Assembly (NCBI RefSeq): GCF_000428945.1
Contig: NZ_AUAX01000006.1
Coordinates: forward strand, 1 to 64,000
Origin: Hamadaea tsunoensis DSM 44101
Lineage (GTDB): Bacteria > Actinomycetota > Actinomycetes > Mycobacteriales > Micromonosporaceae
Length of the DNA: 64,000 bases
Direction of reading: 5' to 3'
Positions 58,115-64,000 of this stretch are shown piece by piece. Numbering within the stretch: the stretch's first letter is position 1; every line of letters starts with the position of its first letter. Under the pieces are notes generated by a model. It was not told the origin of the DNA. It saw only the letters and a program-made list of their open reading frames with translations, and made no database searches. The position numbers and the translations under genes are program-made.

Positions 58115-58927
58115 GTGGTGGAGTACACATCCGGCTCTTCGTCGTGGCGGCGAGCAGTCCGTCGAGCCGTGGGGGTACTGCGCCCGTCCCGGCGTCCGGG
58201 ACGCTCGATCGGATGGTCGCTGGGCGTGCCCGCGATCATGATCGCGGCCGGTGTGCTCTTCACCACCAGCGCCAATACGGCTTCCGGCACCGCCCTGCGC
58301 GAGGACCGGCGGCCGCAGATGGCCCAGGTCATCCAGCAGCAGCAGGCCCGGATCGCCGCCGAGGAACAGACCGCCCGCAGCCTGCGCAACGATGTTGATC
58401 AAGAAACCGCGGGCCTAGCGGGCACCGACACCCCGCTCGCCCAGGCGCGGGCCCGGGGTGACGCCTCGTTGCAGGCCGCCGGGCTGACCGCCCTGCAGGG
58501 GCCGGGCCTGACCGTACGCCTCAACGACGCGCCCACCCCGCAGAAGGGCAGCCGCTCCGACCAGGTGTCGAACGACGATCTCGTCGTCCACCAGCAGGAC
58601 GTGCAGTCGGTGGTGAACGCGCTGTGGGCCGGCGGGGCGGAGGCTATGACGATCATGGGCATCCGGTTGATCTCCACCAGTGCGGTCCGCTGCGTCGGCA
58701 ACACGCTGCTGCTGCAGGGCCAGGTGTACTCGCCGCCATTCGTGATCAAGGCGATCGGCGATCCCGGCCGAATGCGTGCGGCGCTCTCCGCCGACCCCGG
58801 CGTCCAAGCCTTCGAGCAGGCGGTACGCGACTTCGGGCTGGGTTACCAGGTGTCCGACGAGTCGAAGATCGTGGCGCCGGCGTACACCGGTTCCATCGAT
58901 CTGAGCCACGCCGAGGTGGCCAAGTGA
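58115..58927 (+). CDS. DUF881-family envelope protein
   Basis: A 270-aa protein with one N-terminal membrane helix (about 32-54), a coiled-coil stretch (QVIQQQQARIAAEEQTARSLRNDVDQE) and a DUF881 domain (about 125-265: GLTVRLNDAP, LVVHQQDVQSVVNALWAGGAEAMTIMGIRLIS, YSPPFVIKAIGDPGRM). The family is common next to division and wall genes but has no proven activity. It shares a GTGA junction with the sortase gene, so both are probably made together. GTG start. Confidence 0.9.
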   Translation: MVEYTSGSSSWRRAVRRAVGVLRPSRRPGRSIGWSLGVPAIMIAAGVLFTTSANTASGTALREDRRPQMAQVIQQQQARIAAEEQTARSLRNDVDQETAGLAGTDTPLAQARARGDASLQAAGLTALQGPGLTVRLNDAPTPQKGSRSDQVSNDDLVVHQQDVQSVVNALWAGGAEAMTIMGIRLISTSAVRCVGNTLLLQGQVYSPPFVIKAIGDPGRMRAALSADPGVQAFEQAVRDFGLGYQVSDESKIVAPAYTGSIDLSHAEVAK

Positions 58928-60486
58928 GCCGGCATCGCGCCTCCGATCCGAACGACGAGACCTCGATCATTCCCCGGGTCGGTGACGGCCCGCAGGAGTC
59001 GCGGCCGAAGCCCAAGGGACGGCCACGACCGGCCGGTGCACCGCAGGCCGCGGCGCCACCGGGCGCGGAGGCGGACGAGCCGGTGCACACCGTGGCGCCG
59101 CCCGCGACCCAGGTGCCGATCTCGGCTCCGCCGGTCGCTCCGCCCGGCCGCCCGCCGGCCGCCCCGACCGATGAGACGGCGTTCATCCCGCCCGTGACGG
59201 ATGCGGCGCCTTCCGACGATTCCGGGCCTGAAAGTCCTGAAACTTCCGCGCCGGCCTCTACCGAATTCCTCCCGCTGGGCTCCGCCCGCTGGCCCGACAG
59301 CCGGCCGTTCATCCCGCCGGCGAATCCCCCGATGATCGGGGAGCCCGGCTTCGCGCCGCCGAGCGGGGACAACCGGAACGCGACCTACCTGCCGTACGGC
59401 GTACCGACCGCGGCCACGCCGCCGGCCCGGCCGGCACCGAGACCGCCGGCGGCACCGCCCGTGGATCTCGACGCGACCGGGGTCATTCCGCGCATCGAGG
59501 ACGGCGTTCCGGCCCCGGTTCCAGCTCCCGGACCGGTTCCGGTTGTGGCGGTTCCGGTTGTGGCGGTTCCGCCGCCGGACATCGACGCCACGGCCACCAT
59601 TCCCCGGATCGAAGCGGACGCCACGGCCACGCTGCCACGCGTACCGGCGGAGGGGGCCGAACCCGCGTGGGCGGAGCCGACCGGGCTGATCGGCAAGATC
59701 CCCGATGTTCCCGCCCCCGAGCCGGAGGACGCGAAGCCCCGGCGCCGCGACACCTCCGGCGCACCCATCCGCGCGGTACGCATGAAGGGCGCGTACGCGT
59801 CGGCGTACTCGGACTACACCCGGGTCACCGTCGGGTCGGTGGTGCGGACGAGTCTGCGTACCGTCGGCGAAATCATGATCACGTGTGGCCTCGTGGTGCT
59901 GCTGTTCGCCGCGTACGAGGTGTGGGGCAAGACCGCGATCGTCGACGCCCACCAGGACACGTTGAACCAGCAGCTCGCCCAGAACTGGGACCAGCCTTCG
60001 GCCAAGCCGTCGGCGCCCGGCGGCAAGGAGCTCCCGCCCCCGCCCGGCGACGCGATCGGCCGCCTCTACATCCCGCGGCTGAACAAGCACTGGGTCGTCG
60101 TCGAAGGAGTGGCACCCGACGACATCCGGTACGCCCCCGGCCACTACCCGAACAGCGCGATGCCCGGCGAGGAGGGCAACTTCGCGATGGCCGGGCACCG
60201 GATGCGCTCGGTCTTCTGGGACCTGGACCAGGTCGAGGTGGGCGACAAGATCGTCGTCGAGACCCGGTCGACCTGGTACGTGTACGCGGTCGTCAAGGAG
60301 CGCATCGTCAAGCCGACGCAGGTGGAGGTCGTCTCGCCGACGCCGCCCGGGGTCGAGCCCGGCAAGCTGCTGACCCTGACGACGTGCAACCCGAAATGGG
60401 ACAACTACCAGCGCCTGATCATCCACGCGTCCCTGGTCGGGCAGCAGTCCCGGGCCGACGGACCGCCGCCGGAGCTGGGAGGCTGA
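58924..60486 (+). CDS. class E sortase with long Thr-motif-rich cytoplasmic tail
   Basis: A 520-aa protein. The cytoplasmic tail (1-310) is Pro/Ala-rich and carries repeated sites: DETSIIPRV (11-19), DETAFIPPV (83-91), STEFLP (112-117), DATGVIPRI (183-191), DATATIPRI (221-229) and DATATLPRV (232-240). A membrane helix (about 314-331) leads to the extracellular sortase domain with H425 in AMAGHRM, catalytic C488 in TLTTCNP and R497. Class E sortases attach surface proteins bearing LAxTG-type signals. The tail motifs fit the acidic-Thr-x-x-hydrophobic-Pro preference of mycobacterial Ser/Thr kinases, and pknB/pknA are three genes away. Confidence 0.93.
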   Translation: MSRHRASDPNDETSIIPRVGDGPQESRPKPKGRPRPAGAPQAAAPPGAEADEPVHTVAPPATQVPISAPPVAPPGRPPAAPTDETAFIPPVTDAAPSDDSGPESPETSAPASTEFLPLGSARWPDSRPFIPPANPPMIGEPGFAPPSGDNRNATYLPYGVPTAATPPARPAPRPPAAPPVDLDATGVIPRIEDGVPAPVPAPGPVPVVAVPVVAVPPPDIDATATIPRIEADATATLPRVPAEGAEPAWAEPTGLIGKIPDVPAPEPEDAKPRRRDTSGAPIRAVRMKGAYASAYSDYTRVTVGSVVRTSLRTVGEIMITCGLVVLLFAAYEVWGKTAIVDAHQDTLNQQLAQNWDQPSAKPSAPGGKELPPPPGDAIGRLYIPRLNKHWVVVEGVAPDDIRYAPGHYPNSAMPGEEGNFAMAGHRMRSVFWDLDQVEVGDKIVVETRSTWYVYAVVKERIVKPTQVEVVSPTPPGVEPGKLLTLTTCNPKWDNYQRLIIHASLVGQQSRADGPPPELGG

Positions 60487-60489
60487 CGC

Positions 60490-60744
60490 ATGTACGCCTG
60501 GATCTGGCGCCGCCTGCCCGGCCCCTGGTGGGCCCGGTTGGCCGCCGCGTTCGCCCTGACCGGCGGCGTGGTCGCGCTGCTGTGGTACTTCGCGTTCCCG
60601 TGGGCCGAACCGCTGCTGCCCTTCGACGACGTCCAGGTGGGCAACCCCGTCGACGTGGTGCCCGGCCAGGACGTCGTGCCGTATCCCACCGTGGACAACT
60701 CCCAACCCGGCACGCCACAGCCGTCCGCTTCCGTGGCAGGGTGA
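60490..60744 (+). CDS. small single-pass membrane protein
   Basis: An 84-aa protein with one membrane helix (about 15-40, LAAAFALTGGVVALLWYFAFPW) and an extracellular Pro/Asp-rich tail containing DVVPGQDVVPYPTVDN. It lies between the sortase (3 bases after) and the amidotransferase gene (TGATG overlap). The same gene order seems usual in this group, but I know of no assigned function. Confidence 0.8.
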   Translation: MYAWIWRRLPGPWWARLAAAFALTGGVVALLWYFAFPWAEPLLPFDDVQVGNPVDVVPGQDVVPYPTVDNSQPGTPQPSASVAG

Positions 60745-61415
60745 TGGACATGCGCGTACTCGTGATCGACAACTACGACTCGTTCGTCTACAACCTGGTC
60801 CAGTACCTCGGCCAGCTGGGCGTCGAGTGCGACGTACGCCGCAACGACGAGGTCTCGCTCGCCGAGATCGGCCGGCTGGACGTGGCCGGCATCCTGCTCT
60901 CCCCCGGGCCGGGCGCGCCGGAGAGCGCCGGGGTCTGCCTCGACGTGCTCCGCTCCTGCGGCGGCGACGTCCCGATCTTCGGCGTGTGCCTCGGCCACCA
61001 GGCCTTCGGAGCCGCCTTCGGGGCGACGGTCAACCGCGCACCGGAACTCCTGCACGGGAAGACGTCACTGGTCACGCACCTGGGGGTCGGCGTACTCGAA
61101 GGATTGCCGGAACCGTTCACCGCGACGCGCTACCACTCGCTGGCCGTCGTGGAGTCGACGATCCCGGACGAGATCGAGGTGACCGGCTGGACCTTGCCGG
61201 CGAGCGGCTCGGGCCGCGGCGTGGTGATGGCGATGCGGCACCGCACGCTGCCGATCGAGGGTGTGCAGTTCCACCCCGAGTCGGTGCTCACGCAGGGCGG
61301 CCACATCATGCTCGCGAACTGGCTGGCCGCGTGCGGCCGGCCCGACGCCCGGGAGCTGGCACCGGCCCTCGCCGCCGAGGTGGACAGCCGCCGCCTGGCC
61401 GCCTTCGCCCAGTAA
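60744..61415 (+). CDS. aminodeoxychorismate/anthranilate synthase component II (glutamine amidotransferase)
   Basis: A 223-aa class I glutamine amidotransferase with the oxyanion strand SPGPGAPESAG, nucleophile C82 in GVCLGHQAFG, and H177/E179 in GVQFHPESVLT. It supplies ammonia to an anthranilate or 4-amino-4-deoxychorismate synthase; in actinobacteria the copy beside pknB is annotated as trpG or pabA and may serve folate synthesis. No component I gene is nearby. The ATG overlaps the stop of the small membrane gene. Confidence 0.94.
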   Translation: MDMRVLVIDNYDSFVYNLVQYLGQLGVECDVRRNDEVSLAEIGRLDVAGILLSPGPGAPESAGVCLDVLRSCGGDVPIFGVCLGHQAFGAAFGATVNRAPELLHGKTSLVTHLGVGVLEGLPEPFTATRYHSLAVVESTIPDEIEVTGWTLPASGSGRGVVMAMRHRTLPIEGVQFHPESVLTQGGHIMLANWLAACGRPDARELAPALAAEVDSRRLAAFAQ

Positions 61416-61470: not shown

Positions 61471-63171
61471 CTACGGCGTGTTCGTCGGCTCCGGCGAGGC
61501 GGACTGGGACGGGCTCGTCGTCGCGGCGTAGTCCACCGAGATCTTGACCTTGGAATTCTTGAGGACCAGCGTGTCCTTGCGAGGGGTCTGGTCGCTGACC
61601 TTGCCGGCGTCCTCGGGGGCGACCTCCTGGCCCAGGACGACCTGAGCCTCCAGCCCGTAACCCTTGAGGGTGTTGATGGCCTGTTCCTGGGTCATGCCGA
61701 TGACGTTCGGGACGGCGACCTTGTTGTTGAGCGAGATCGCGACCTCGACCGTCGACCCCCGCTCCACGCTGGTGCCGGGCGCCGGGTTCGAGGAGAGGAC
61801 CTGGTCCTTGGGCTTCTCGCTGTCGACCGGCACGAACTTCGCCTGCAGCCCGGCTCCGGCCAGCGCCGCCTCGGCGTCCGACCGGCTCAGGTTGACCAGC
61901 GGCGGCACCTTGGTGGTACCGGGACCGGTGCACAGCACGACGGTCACGGTCGACCGCTCCTCGGCCTTCTGCCCGCCGGGCGGCGTCTGCGACACGACCC
62001 GGTCCTTGTCGCAGTCGGCACTCGTATCCGGCGCACCGTACGCGATCCCGAAGTTGTCGTGCTTGAGCATGGCTTCGGCCTGGTCCTTCGTCATCCCGAC
62101 GACCCGCGGCACGTCCACCTTGGTCGGCTGGTTGAGCAGGATCAGGCCGGCGGCGACGGCGACCACGGCCAGCACGCCGAGGAACGACAGGACGGCGATG
62201 GCGGCCCCGGAGGTCCGCTTCCGCTTGCCGTTGCCGACCCGGGCGCCGTTGCGGTTGCCGTTCGTACGCGGTGCCGCCGTCATCGGCACCGTCTCCTCCT
62301 CGCGCAGCACCGGGGTGGCCAGGACCGGCCGGCCGGAGGCGGCGCGCAGGAGGTCGGCGCGCATCTCGGCGGCCGACTGGTAACGGTTGGCGGGGTTCTT
62401 GGCGAGCGCCTTGAGCACGATCGCGTCGATGTCCGGCGTGACGTCGCGGTTGCTGGTCGACGGCGGCCGCGGATCCTCCCGCACGTGCTGGTACGCCACC
62501 GCCACCGGCGAGTCGCCGACGAACGGCGGGTGCCCGCAGAGCAGCTCGAACAGCACGCAGCCGGCCGCGTAGACGTCGGAACGGGCGTCCACCGCCTCGC
62601 CCCGGGCCTGCTCCGGCGACAGGTACTGGGCGGTGCCGATGACCGCCGAGGTCTGCGTCATCGTGGTCGCGCCGCTGGCCAGGGCCCGCGCGATGCCGAA
62701 GTCCATCACCTTGACCTGGCCGTTGGGCGTCAGCATGACGTTGCCCGGCTTGATGTCGCGGTGGATGATGCCGTGCCGGTGGCTGAACTCGAGGGCGGCG
62801 CAGATGTCGGCGGTGATCTCCAGCGCGCGGCGCGGCATGAGCCGGCCCTCGGCGGCGAGCACCTCCTTCAGCGTGCGCCCCGCCACGAACTCCATGACGA
62901 TGTAGGGCAGGACCTCGTTGGTGGCCCCGCGCTCCTCGCCGGTGTCGTAGACGGCGACGATCGCCGGATGATTCAGCGCGGCGGCATTCTGCGCCTCGCG
63001 GCGGAACCGCATCTGGAAGGTGTTGTCCCGGGCCAGGTCGGTACGCAGCATCTTGATCGCGACATCGCGCCCCAGGCGCAGATCGCGCCCGCGGTGCACC
63101 TCGGCCATGCCGCCGTAGCCGAGCAGCTCGCCGACCTGGTATCTGCCACCCAGCAGCCGGGCCTGCGTCAT
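61471..63171 (-). CDS. pknB: Ser/Thr protein kinase PknB with three PASTA domains
   Basis: A 566-aa transmembrane kinase. The kinase domain (about 11-275) has the glycine loop LGYGGMAEV, K40, D139 in HRDIKPGN, DFG 157-159 and activation-loop Thr 172 and 174 in MTQTSAVIGTAQYLSPE. A juxtamembrane linker leads to one membrane helix (about 322-346) and three extracellular PASTA domains (about 351-420, 421-487, 488-552) that bind muropeptides or lipid II. M. tuberculosis PknB has four PASTA units. It controls wall growth and division. The Ser/Pro/Thr tail is short. It overlaps pknA by four bases. Confidence 0.97.
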   Translation of the reverse strand: MTQARLLGGRYQVGELLGYGGMAEVHRGRDLRLGRDVAIKMLRTDLARDNTFQMRFRREAQNAAALNHPAIVAVYDTGEERGATNEVLPYIVMEFVAGRTLKEVLAAEGRLMPRRALEITADICAALEFSHRHGIIHRDIKPGNVMLTPNGQVKVMDFGIARALASGATTMTQTSAVIGTAQYLSPEQARGEAVDARSDVYAAGCVLFELLCGHPPFVGDSPVAVAYQHVREDPRPPSTSNRDVTPDIDAIVLKALAKNPANRYQSAAEMRADLLRAASGRPVLATPVLREEETVPMTAAPRTNGNRNGARVGNGKRKRTSGAAIAVLSFLGVLAVVAVAAGLILLNQPTKVDVPRVVGMTKDQAEAMLKHDNFGIAYGAPDTSADCDKDRVVSQTPPGGQKAEERSTVTVVLCTGPGTTKVPPLVNLSRSDAEAALAGAGLQAKFVPVDSEKPKDQVLSSNPAPGTSVERGSTVEVAISLNNKVAVPNVIGMTQEQAINTLKGYGLEAQVVLGQEVAPEDAGKVSDQTPRKDTLVLKNSKVKISVDYAATTSPSQSASPEPTNTP

Positions 63172-64000
63172 CTCGTCCGTCGTCCTTCGGTCGTCGGCTC
63201 CGGGCTCGTCGCCCGGAACTCCGTCAGCTTTACCCGGGCCGAGTCAGCTTGCCAAATCCCCGCCGGTCTTGTCACGTTCTGGGGCGCGTCGATGTGACCG
63301 GAACCACCCCAGACCGAATTTCGCGTCACGCTGTACCCGATGTACCCCGCACACGCAACAATGGCCGCCATAGCCACAAAAACCAGCAAAATCATCCAAA
63401 AGGTACGCCATGCCCCGCCCGTAGGTTGCACGGCGGTCTTCGTTTCCGTGGCGCGTACGGGGGTGGGGCCGGGTACGCCGACACCGCCTCCGCTGGACGG
63501 ACCCGGTTGCCCGCTGACCTGCGCCGGTACGCGATTCGGCAACCCGCCGCCGTTGGGCGCCCCGACATGCGACAAGGGCGGAGCGCCCTTCTGGGCCGGA
63601 GTCGGCGTCGGATTGCCGGTGGCCACGGACGCGCGGCCGGGCGACACGGGCGCCGGCGAGTACGGCATCGGCGAGACCGGCGAACCGACCGGCGCCCGGC
63701 CGGACTGGTCGCCGCTCAGCACCGCCGCCGCCTGCCGGGCCGCCGCGCCGAAGATGGCCGCGCTCGGCCACCGGGCACCGGGGTCCTTGGCCATCGCCCG
63801 CTCGACGATCGCCCGCACGGCCGGCGGAACATCGGGCGGGAGCGGGGCCGGGGCGAGGCGTACGTGCTTCATCGCGATCTCGATGGGGTTGTCCCCCTCG
63901 AACGGCCGCCGCCCCGACAGGCACTGGTACGCGACCACGCCCAGCGAGTAGACGTCGGAAGCGGCCGTCGCGGTCTGGCCGGACGCCTGCTCGGGCGCCA
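63168..64000 (-). CDS. pknA: Ser/Thr protein kinase PknA (5' part outside window)
   Basis: The C-terminal 276 codons of a kinase that enters from beyond the right edge. The last part of the catalytic domain is visible (APEQASGQTATAASDVYSLGVVAYQCLSGRRPFEGDNPIEIAMKHV), then a long Pro/Gly-rich linker, one membrane helix (WMILLVFVAMAAIVACAGYIGY) and a short extracellular tail of about 55 residues without PASTA domains, as in PknA. It shares an ATGA junction with pknB. The frame is open to the window end; the activation loop and ATP site are not visible. Confidence 0.93.
   Translation of the reverse strand, partial: APEQASGQTATAASDVYSLGVVAYQCLSGRRPFEGDNPIEIAMKHVRLAPAPLPPDVPPAVRAIVERAMAKDPGARWPSAAIFGAAARQAAAVLSGDQSGRAPVGSPVSPMPYSPAPVSPGRASVATGNPTPTPAQKGAPPLSHVGAPNGGGLPNRVPAQVSGQPGPSSGGGVGVPGPTPVRATETKTAVQPTGGAWRTFWMILLVFVAMAAIVACAGYIGYSVTRNSVWGGSGHIDAPQNVTRPAGIWQADSARVKLTEFRATSPEPTTEGRRTR

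Follow-up and report, generated by a model that had tools for sequence, protein, structure and literature searches.

A conserved threonine motif array in the predicted cytoplasmic tail of a Micromonosporaceae class E sortase, a candidate substrate of PknA/PknB and ligand of FHA proteins

In the 64,000-nucleotide stretch of Hamadaea tsunoensis DSM 44101 analyzed here (the window; NZ_AUAX01000006.1, positions 1 to 64,000), a gene for a class E sortase (SrtE) at 58924..60486 (+) encodes a long N-terminal tail that carries six copies of the motif T-x-x-[IL]-P, five of them with Asp two residues before the Thr (position −2; all offsets below are counted from the Thr). The motif, its conservation among orthologous tails of the family, its specificity for Thr, and its sharing with part of the relatives of two other membrane proteins, MurJ and a PASTA protein, are direct observations. 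It is reasonably likely that these threonines are phospho-acceptor sites of the Ser/Thr kinases PknA and PknB that FHA proteins recognize, which would couple the sortase to growth of the envelope; that the threonines are phosphorylated, that FHA proteins bind them and that anchoring is affected are steps that we infer from sequence. A Thr-phosphorylation array read by FHA proteins is the most economical reading of the evidence laid out below.

First, the array stands far above chance. Translation from the GTG at 58924 gives exactly the six sites listed in the original prediction, an earlier model-made note on this DNA: site 1, D11-E-T13-S-I-I-P17 (58954..58974), inside a conserved N-terminal RHR block; site 2, D83-E-T85-A-F-I-P89 (59170..59190); site 3, A111-S-T113-E-F-L-P117 (59254..59274), with Ala, not Asp, at −2; site 4, D183-A-T185-G-V-I-P189 (59470..59490); site 5, D221-A-T223-A-T-I-P227 (59584..59604); and site 6, D232-A-T234-A-T-L-P238 (59617..59637), all on the + strand. 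Also on this strand are a degenerate unit, D125-S-R-P-F-I-P131 (59296..59316), in which Arg replaces Thr and which shares an 18-nt DNA repeat (D5) with site 2, and a membrane-near Thr site, T253-G-L-I-G-K-I-P in the context E-P-T-G-L-I-G-K-I-P (59680..59703), with Ile at +3 and Gly at +4. Shuffled versions of the 314-residue tail contain T-x-x-[IL]-P 0.32 times and D-x-T-x-x-[IL]-P 0.02 times on average, and none of 20,000 shuffles reached six of the former or five of the latter; at seven other offsets (1 to 8 residues before [IL]P), Thr occurs 0 to 2 times each. In 464 kb of this genome, where a crude script called 369 genes, six T-x-x-[IL]-P fall in the sortase and no more than two in any other gene, and the only other genes with two sites that are acidic at −2 are those of MurJ and a PASTA protein. 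At the DNA level, the strict pattern D-[ADEGV]-T-x-x-[IL]-P-[NKSRHQ]-[VIM], with Leu accepted as CTC/CTT only, occurs at five places in the whole 9.48 Mb genome, three of them in the sortase tail, against none in a reversed control. The looser D-[ADE]-T-x-x-[ILM]-P occurs at 49 places versus 22 in the control; five are grouped in the sortase tail, the sole cluster of at least three in its genome, and two lie 138 bp apart at the MurJ gene start, any other pair being at least 9 kb apart. The array was not found in the five other sortases of the genome, and a motif common to all of its sortases was rejected on that count (0/5 paralogues). Because the sites resemble each other at the DNA level (sites 5 and 6 are repeats with 83% identity, and sites 1, 2, 4 and 5 are alike at 66–76% over 29 nt), local duplication may account for part of the array. 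An explanation by tandem repeats alone was rejected on the conservation of the array among orthologous tails and on the DNA-repeat comparison.

Second, the motif persists across the family. The named-genome scan took the best 80 of 208 confirmed relatives, including Hamadaea and others as well as Catellatospora, Micromonospora, Phytohabitans, Dactylosporangium, Plantactinospora and Virgisporangium, which we take to be genera of the Micromonosporaceae; its counts refer to 66 tails, 14 of the 80 loci having been excluded because a contig end truncates their tail. A second family set of 54 tails shares genomes with the named set and is thus not independent of it; start codons are unsure, as two frame callings gave different results at several loci, and the 54-tail set uses the longer version. 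At least one T-x-x-[IL]-P is present in 65 of the 66 named tails and at least two in 63, with 188 sites in all, where shuffling gives 16 on average (maximum 27, 300 shuffles); in the 54-tail set, 49 tails carry the motif, with 126 sites against 10.7 (maximum 22, 500 shuffles). The five motif-less tails are 18 to 116 residues long, some of them cut or mis-started, and the open frame of one such locus (L029) does hold motifs. Thr is preferred over Ser with the strictness expected of an FHA ligand, 188 to 3 in the named set, though these tails contain 1653 Thr and 1282 Ser, and 126 to 3 in the 54-tail set. The spacing is exact, as evidenced by 126 cases in which two residues separate Thr from [IL]P and 7 to 31 at each of the other gaps from 0 to 6 (54-tail set). 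An unbiased search over 2430 gapped triplets, each present in at least 6 of 23 tails, ranked T-x-[IL]-[IL] third, T-x-x-[IL]-x-x-V fifth and [DE]-x-T-x-x-[IL] sixth, amid triplets of the RHR block; 20 of 23 tails contain T-x-x-[IL]-P itself, versus 3.2 after shuffling. The consensus of 121 unique 14-mers has Asp at −2 (50, plus 12 Glu), Ala/Pro at −1, Ala/Thr at +1, a hydrophobic residue at +2, Ile/Leu at +3, Pro at +4, Ala/Arg/Lys at +5 and Val/Ile at +6. The membrane-near site recurs as T-x-[LIMV]-[MILV]-G, seen as T-x-[LM]-[MLI]-G-x-[VI]-P, in 58 of the 66 named tails.

Copy number, which the original prediction had proposed to follow across orthologues, is not conserved, ranging from 0 to 8 per tail in the 54-tail set and from 0 to 5 in the named set. 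The same note would have been undone by motifs lost from a linker that is kept, and the opposite was found: the motifs are kept, and the linkers between them align poorly in a 19-row alignment. In alignment A2 (19 rows), R3, H4 and P238 are near-invariant tail columns and A6 is invariant; in A3, which is A2 minus L248 (a masked stretch) and L215 (start set too early), A6, T13, T223 and P227 are near-invariant (T13, T223 and P227 at ≥90%). Those Thr and P227 columns are not so in A2, the ranking of columns depending on the rows.

Third, what might such an array do? The sortase tail would be a cytoplasmic, disordered, multivalent phospho-acceptor arm, whose D-x-T-x-x-[IL]-P threonines would be phosphorylated by PknA and/or PknB. 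FhaA, and perhaps FhaB, encoded in the same conserved cluster, would then bind the phosphothreonines (pThr), keeping the sortase where the envelope grows, alongside other bearers of the motif (MurJ and the PASTA membrane protein). Lipid II is what sortases attach proteins to, and MurJ has been proposed as its flippase; the arrangement would therefore probably serve to put the anchoring enzyme, subject to the kinases, at the point where lipid II appears.

The preferences of the mycobacterial kinases agree with the sites in part. According to the accessible portion of a PknA depletion study, peptides that lose Thr phosphorylation show an excess of acidic residues at −1 and −3 to −6, of Pro at −1 and +2, of Leu/Val at +3 and of Lys/Arg at +4, the PknB enrichments in the same study not being significant (PMC7164672). 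Excerpts of Chou 2012 mention neither PknA nor PknB. Of the kinase preference invoked in the original prediction, acidic residues before the Thr and a hydrophobic residue at +3 hold up against this logo, and Pro at +4 does not. Both features looked for in a PknA/PknB substrate, an acidic residue upstream and a hydrophobic one at +3, are present: 62 of the 121 unique sites have Asp/Glu at −2, a position counted here whereas the logo lists −1 and −3 to −6, and Ile/Leu at +3 is there by construction. Sites of the T-x-x-[ILVF]-P shape are phosphorylated in vivo in Mycobacterium tuberculosis, namely PknB T309 (R-pT-D-P-L-P) and Rv0227c (E-pT-E-K-L-P; PMC4322841), and Rv0497 (L-pT-G-E-I-P) and AnsP1 (H-pT-G-P-F-P; PMC4322841 Table 1). 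These make up 4 of 40 localized pThr sites, comprising those with a visible +3 in the available part of that paper and one, CwlM T382, from another (PMC6180346). On the reader side, excerpts of the literature report that the FHA domain of FhaA binds CwlM phospho-T382 (PMC6180346), and that no protein in the FhaA interactome is more abundant than PgfA (Rv0227c), Mvin being another of the partners (PMC11898655). Phosphosites are further described, in part of another study, as favoring acidic surroundings, with many of those that change on PstP knockdown lying near the N-terminus (PMC6554272).

A related box occurs in Streptomyces-type SrtE1. A Streptomyces-type relative retrieved with the same sortase query matches the solved SrtE1 structure 5cuw (E 1.6e-45 over 93 residues). 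The set comprised the 30 best loci, from the 59 of 61 genomes with a match, and these genomes carry paired class E sortases. Its tails contain a [DEA]-T-[VIML]-[AG]-[LIV]-R box in 28 of 30 cases, mostly as D-[DE]-E-T-V-A-L-R and 20 to 55 residues ahead of a basic patch; T-x-x-[IL]-P is also found in 14 of the 30. The box fits the PknA logo (acidic upstream, Leu at +3, Arg at +4) as well as the in vivo site of GltA2, D-D-pT-A-T-L-R. The available part of a study of S. coelicolor SrtE1 describes an acidic segment (D50–E60) and a basic segment (R82–R92); deletion of residues 15–79 gave a phenotype indistinguishable from the null, deletion of residues 82–90 of the basic patch left a protein that restored function, and Kattke and colleagues speculate on protein interaction (PMC5148588). 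Judging by where it sits in the tails of relatives, the box probably corresponds to this acidic segment, which the null-like deletion removes.

Two other membrane proteins of the Hamadaea genome bear the motif. MurJ, the lipid II flippase (C6:153866-156133, −; L176), has D-A-T-x-x-[IL]-P in its N-terminal tail, and this extension reads D-P-D-A-T-M-M-L-P-Q, N-D-A-T-T-V-L-R-P and D-D-A-T-T-I-L-P-A. Family MurJ N-tails contain T-x-x-[IL]-P in 6 of 13 cases against a shuffled mean of 0.63 (maximum 3, 500 shuffles), one locus (L177) having been omitted with its frame not found, and Streptomyces-type MurJ loci do so in 12 of 26. A kinase-less single-pass PASTA protein (C6:80154-81083, +; L129:16154-17083) holds its own T-x-x-[ILVM]-P array of five copies in its N-terminal tail. 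The motif is present in the tails of 10 of the 12 matched genomes, with ten copies in one (G013/L326), and 19 of the 31 genomes searched gave no match. A broader idea, which we regard as possible but tentative, is that PknA/PknB write, and FhaA reads, a single pThr code, D-x-pT-x-x-[IL]-P/R, that labels a set of envelope proteins in Micromonosporaceae comprising at least SrtE, MurJ and the PASTA protein. It would gather the flippase and the lipid II-using sortase into one kinase-controlled assembly, such that anchoring follows wall growth or sporulation signals.

A number of points weigh against phosphorylation and FHA reading of the tail. The Lys/Arg at +4 of the PknA logo is absent from the window sites, which have Pro there, the Streptomyces-type box having Arg; the conserved hydrophobic +2 and Val/Ile +6 are demanded by neither the PknA logo nor the FHA +3 rule; and these hydrophobics, like Pro +4, are left unexplained. 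The +3 rule is itself doubted (PMC4037201), and a hydrophobic +3 occurs in only 18 of the 40 mycobacterial pThr sites, taken from partly available sources, versus 7 of the 39 remaining Thr of those peptides. In S. coelicolor, the position of the box is one that we infer from the tails of relatives, and an effect of the 15–79 deletion on protein stability was not excluded by the authors in the accessible text (PMC5148588). Fewer than half of the MurJ tails in the family have the motif, and elsewhere in the order 1 of 16 does. No SrtE phosphorylation data were found in the open-access literature searched, most subscription papers lying outside the search. Finally, class E sortases of other families contain T-x-x-[IL]-P in 2 of 55 frames (54 loci, chosen starts), one of them a Gly-rich chance-like match, and in 3 of 55 when read from the first possible start. 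This sample set aside six Streptomyces-type loci and one repeat locus (L108), and 31 of its tails (chosen starts), or 14 (longest reading), are shorter than 60 residues. An array general to class E sortases was rejected for the sample on these counts.

Because the phospho-FHA reading leaves the +2 and +6 hydrophobics and Pro +4 unexplained, its main rival is docking independent of phosphorylation, in which an extended T-x-h-[IL]-P-x-[VI] would bind a scaffold or membrane partner, the repeats would add avidity, and Thr would be kept for packing or a hydrogen bond. Conservation of the hydrophobic +2 and Val/Ile +6 recalls a beta-strand docking motif, Pro +4 is absent from the PknA logo, and the S. 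coelicolor deletion phenotype is compatible with any docking role. However, Ser almost never substitutes for Thr, and both the acidic bias at −2/−3 and the Streptomyces-type DDETVALR form resemble kinase sites; on balance, we consider docking unlikely. Rather improbable, too, is a kinase substrate without an FHA reader, whose added charge would alter the clustering, localization or turnover of the sortase: the same motif evidence speaks for it as for the favored reading, and multisite disordered tails are typical of charge switches, but the strict choice of Thr over Ser (188 to 3) is better explained by a pThr-specific reader, and the partners of FhaA include some mycobacterial proteins that carry similar sites. 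A motif without selected function, the by-product of a Pro/Ala/Thr-rich tail growing by slippage, could draw on the DNA similarity of sites 5 and 6 and on the copy number of 0 to 8, but is very improbable given that 65 of 66 orthologous tails retain the motif, that shuffled tails yield about a tenth of the sites, that Thr occurs at other offsets at most 31 times versus 126, and that Pro-rich stretches elsewhere in the sampled genome contain 0.23 sites per 315 residues.

The sortase gene has a GTG start and encodes 520 residues; the product is class E by similarity, with a Pfam Sortase match (PF04203, residues 381–505, E 9.6e-33, 113 bits) and catalytic His425, Cys488 and Arg497 invariant across 19 aligned proteins, as expected of a sortase domain. 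The tail (residues 1–302; 58924..59829, +), placed in the cytoplasm by its likely topology, is predicted to be disordered: AlphaFold2, with an alignment of 17, gives it no secondary structure and a predicted local distance difference test score (pLDDT) of 34–53 per block of ten, in a model that is weak overall (mean pLDDT 54.4, predicted template modeling score (pTM) 0.34). The same model has a predicted helix at residues 303–354 that includes the membrane anchor (59830..59985, +), and the catalytic domain found by Pfam (60064..60438, +) would lie outside the cytoplasm by the same topology. A juxtamembrane block, Y-x-S-x-Y-S-x-x-T-R-x-T (residues 291–302, 59794–59829), is strongly conserved, with Y291, S293, T299 and R300 invariant in the 19 proteins.

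Upstream, a gene for a DUF881 protein (58115..58927, +; Pfam PF05949, E 1.4e-46) has a stop that overlaps the sortase start (GTGA). Downstream, an 84-residue open frame with a hydrophobic start and no Pfam match (60490–60744, +) lies between the sortase and pabA, a pabA/trpG-type glutamine amidotransferase gene (60750..61415, +; Pfam) that serves as a synteny marker, its DNYDSF motif being downstream of the sortase in 80 of 80 named loci. The candidate writers follow on the opposite strand: a PknB-type Ser/Thr kinase with PASTA domains (61471..63171, −; Pfam Pkinase plus three PASTA stretches) and a PknA-type kinase (63168..64000, −, on to C6:64535 beyond the window; Pfam). The pknB end is 1.0 kb and pknA 2.7 kb from the sortase stop, and both genes are convergent with the sortase and outside its operon. 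The PknB protein itself holds E-E-E-T-V-P-M between its kinase domain and membrane segment, close to a PknA-type site (acidic upstream, Pro at +2, hydrophobic +3). The FhaB-like gene (C6:69197-69682, −; Pfam) and the FhaA gene (FhaA_N plus FHA; C6:69688-70437, −; Pfam) are located 5–6 kb past the window end.

The nearby kinase genes had been part of the case made in the original prediction, and an opposite-strand kinase motif does occur at 75 of the 80 named loci. This support falls away, as the motif neither requires the kinases nearby nor follows from their presence: family sortases without pabA next to them retain the motif in 7 of 7 cases, and other-family sortases followed by pabA have it in 0 of 28 (chosen starts) or 1 of 28 (longest possible frame). 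Adjacency to pknB was rejected as evidence on this dissociation of location and motif in both directions. In family f8 of the same order, many genomes have no match to the window sortase at E 1e-20 (20 of the 66 non-matching genomes listed), and two do match. In a class E sortase of another family (L104), the long tail has three copies of T-E-x-I-[RK]-P, a sequence similar to the Rv2536 site phosphorylated in vivo in M. tuberculosis, P-pT-E-V-I-R.

The 2016 S. coelicolor SrtE1 paper left open why the cytoplasmic tail is needed, and the conserved Thr box offers a precise, quickly testable answer. If the proposed phosphorylation and FHA reading are true, protein anchoring would, like peptidoglycan synthesis, be under a PknA/PknB–FhaA switch, and a search with the motif could list more proteins under that switch in filamentous actinobacteria, which depend on sortase E to form sporangia and aerial hyphae and to control exploratory growth. 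The closest comparison is S. coelicolor SrtE1 itself, likewise a class E sortase with a variable cytoplasmic extension and an acidic-containing region needed for function; unlike the window array with Pro at +4, Streptomyces-type tails mostly have one box with Arg at +4, and neither kinases nor phosphorylation are mentioned in that paper (PMC5148588). In a relative, Actinoplanes missouriensis, the class E sortase SrtE (792 residues) is required, according to the accessible part of the report, for sporangium formation and suppression of exploratory growth, and the text does not mention phosphorylation or PknB (PMC13251363).

Among phosphorylation systems, mycobacterial phospho-CwlM and MurJ/MviN with FhaA are alike in that kinase-written pThr on envelope-growth proteins is bound by FhaA (PMC6180346, PMC11898655, both available in part), and CwlM T382, P-pT-G-T-F, likewise has a hydrophobic +3 (PMC6180346). 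As far as these excerpts go, they involve neither a sortase nor an array, and the mycobacterial FhaA site of MurJ is in a pseudokinase domain, unlike the motif in the N-terminal tail of the Hamadaea MurJ. Staphylococcus aureus SrtA is a sortase regulated by a Ser/Thr kinase, Stk1, with at least 28 reported sites in its catalytic part, including Cys184; in the accessible portion of that paper, a tail array and an FHA protein are not mentioned (PMC9928477). Neither SrtE phosphorylation nor a Thr array in any sortase tail is reported in the open-access literature searched, most subscription papers lying outside it. In the mycobacterial ABC transporter Rv1747, a phosphorylated linker lies near the protein's own FHA domains, and the transporter is reported to cluster. 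Unlike this transporter with built-in FHA domains, the window array and its reader would be separate proteins. Kinase control of a sortase (S. aureus SrtA) and pThr–FHA control of mycobacterial envelope proteins are known separately, and their combination appears to be new.

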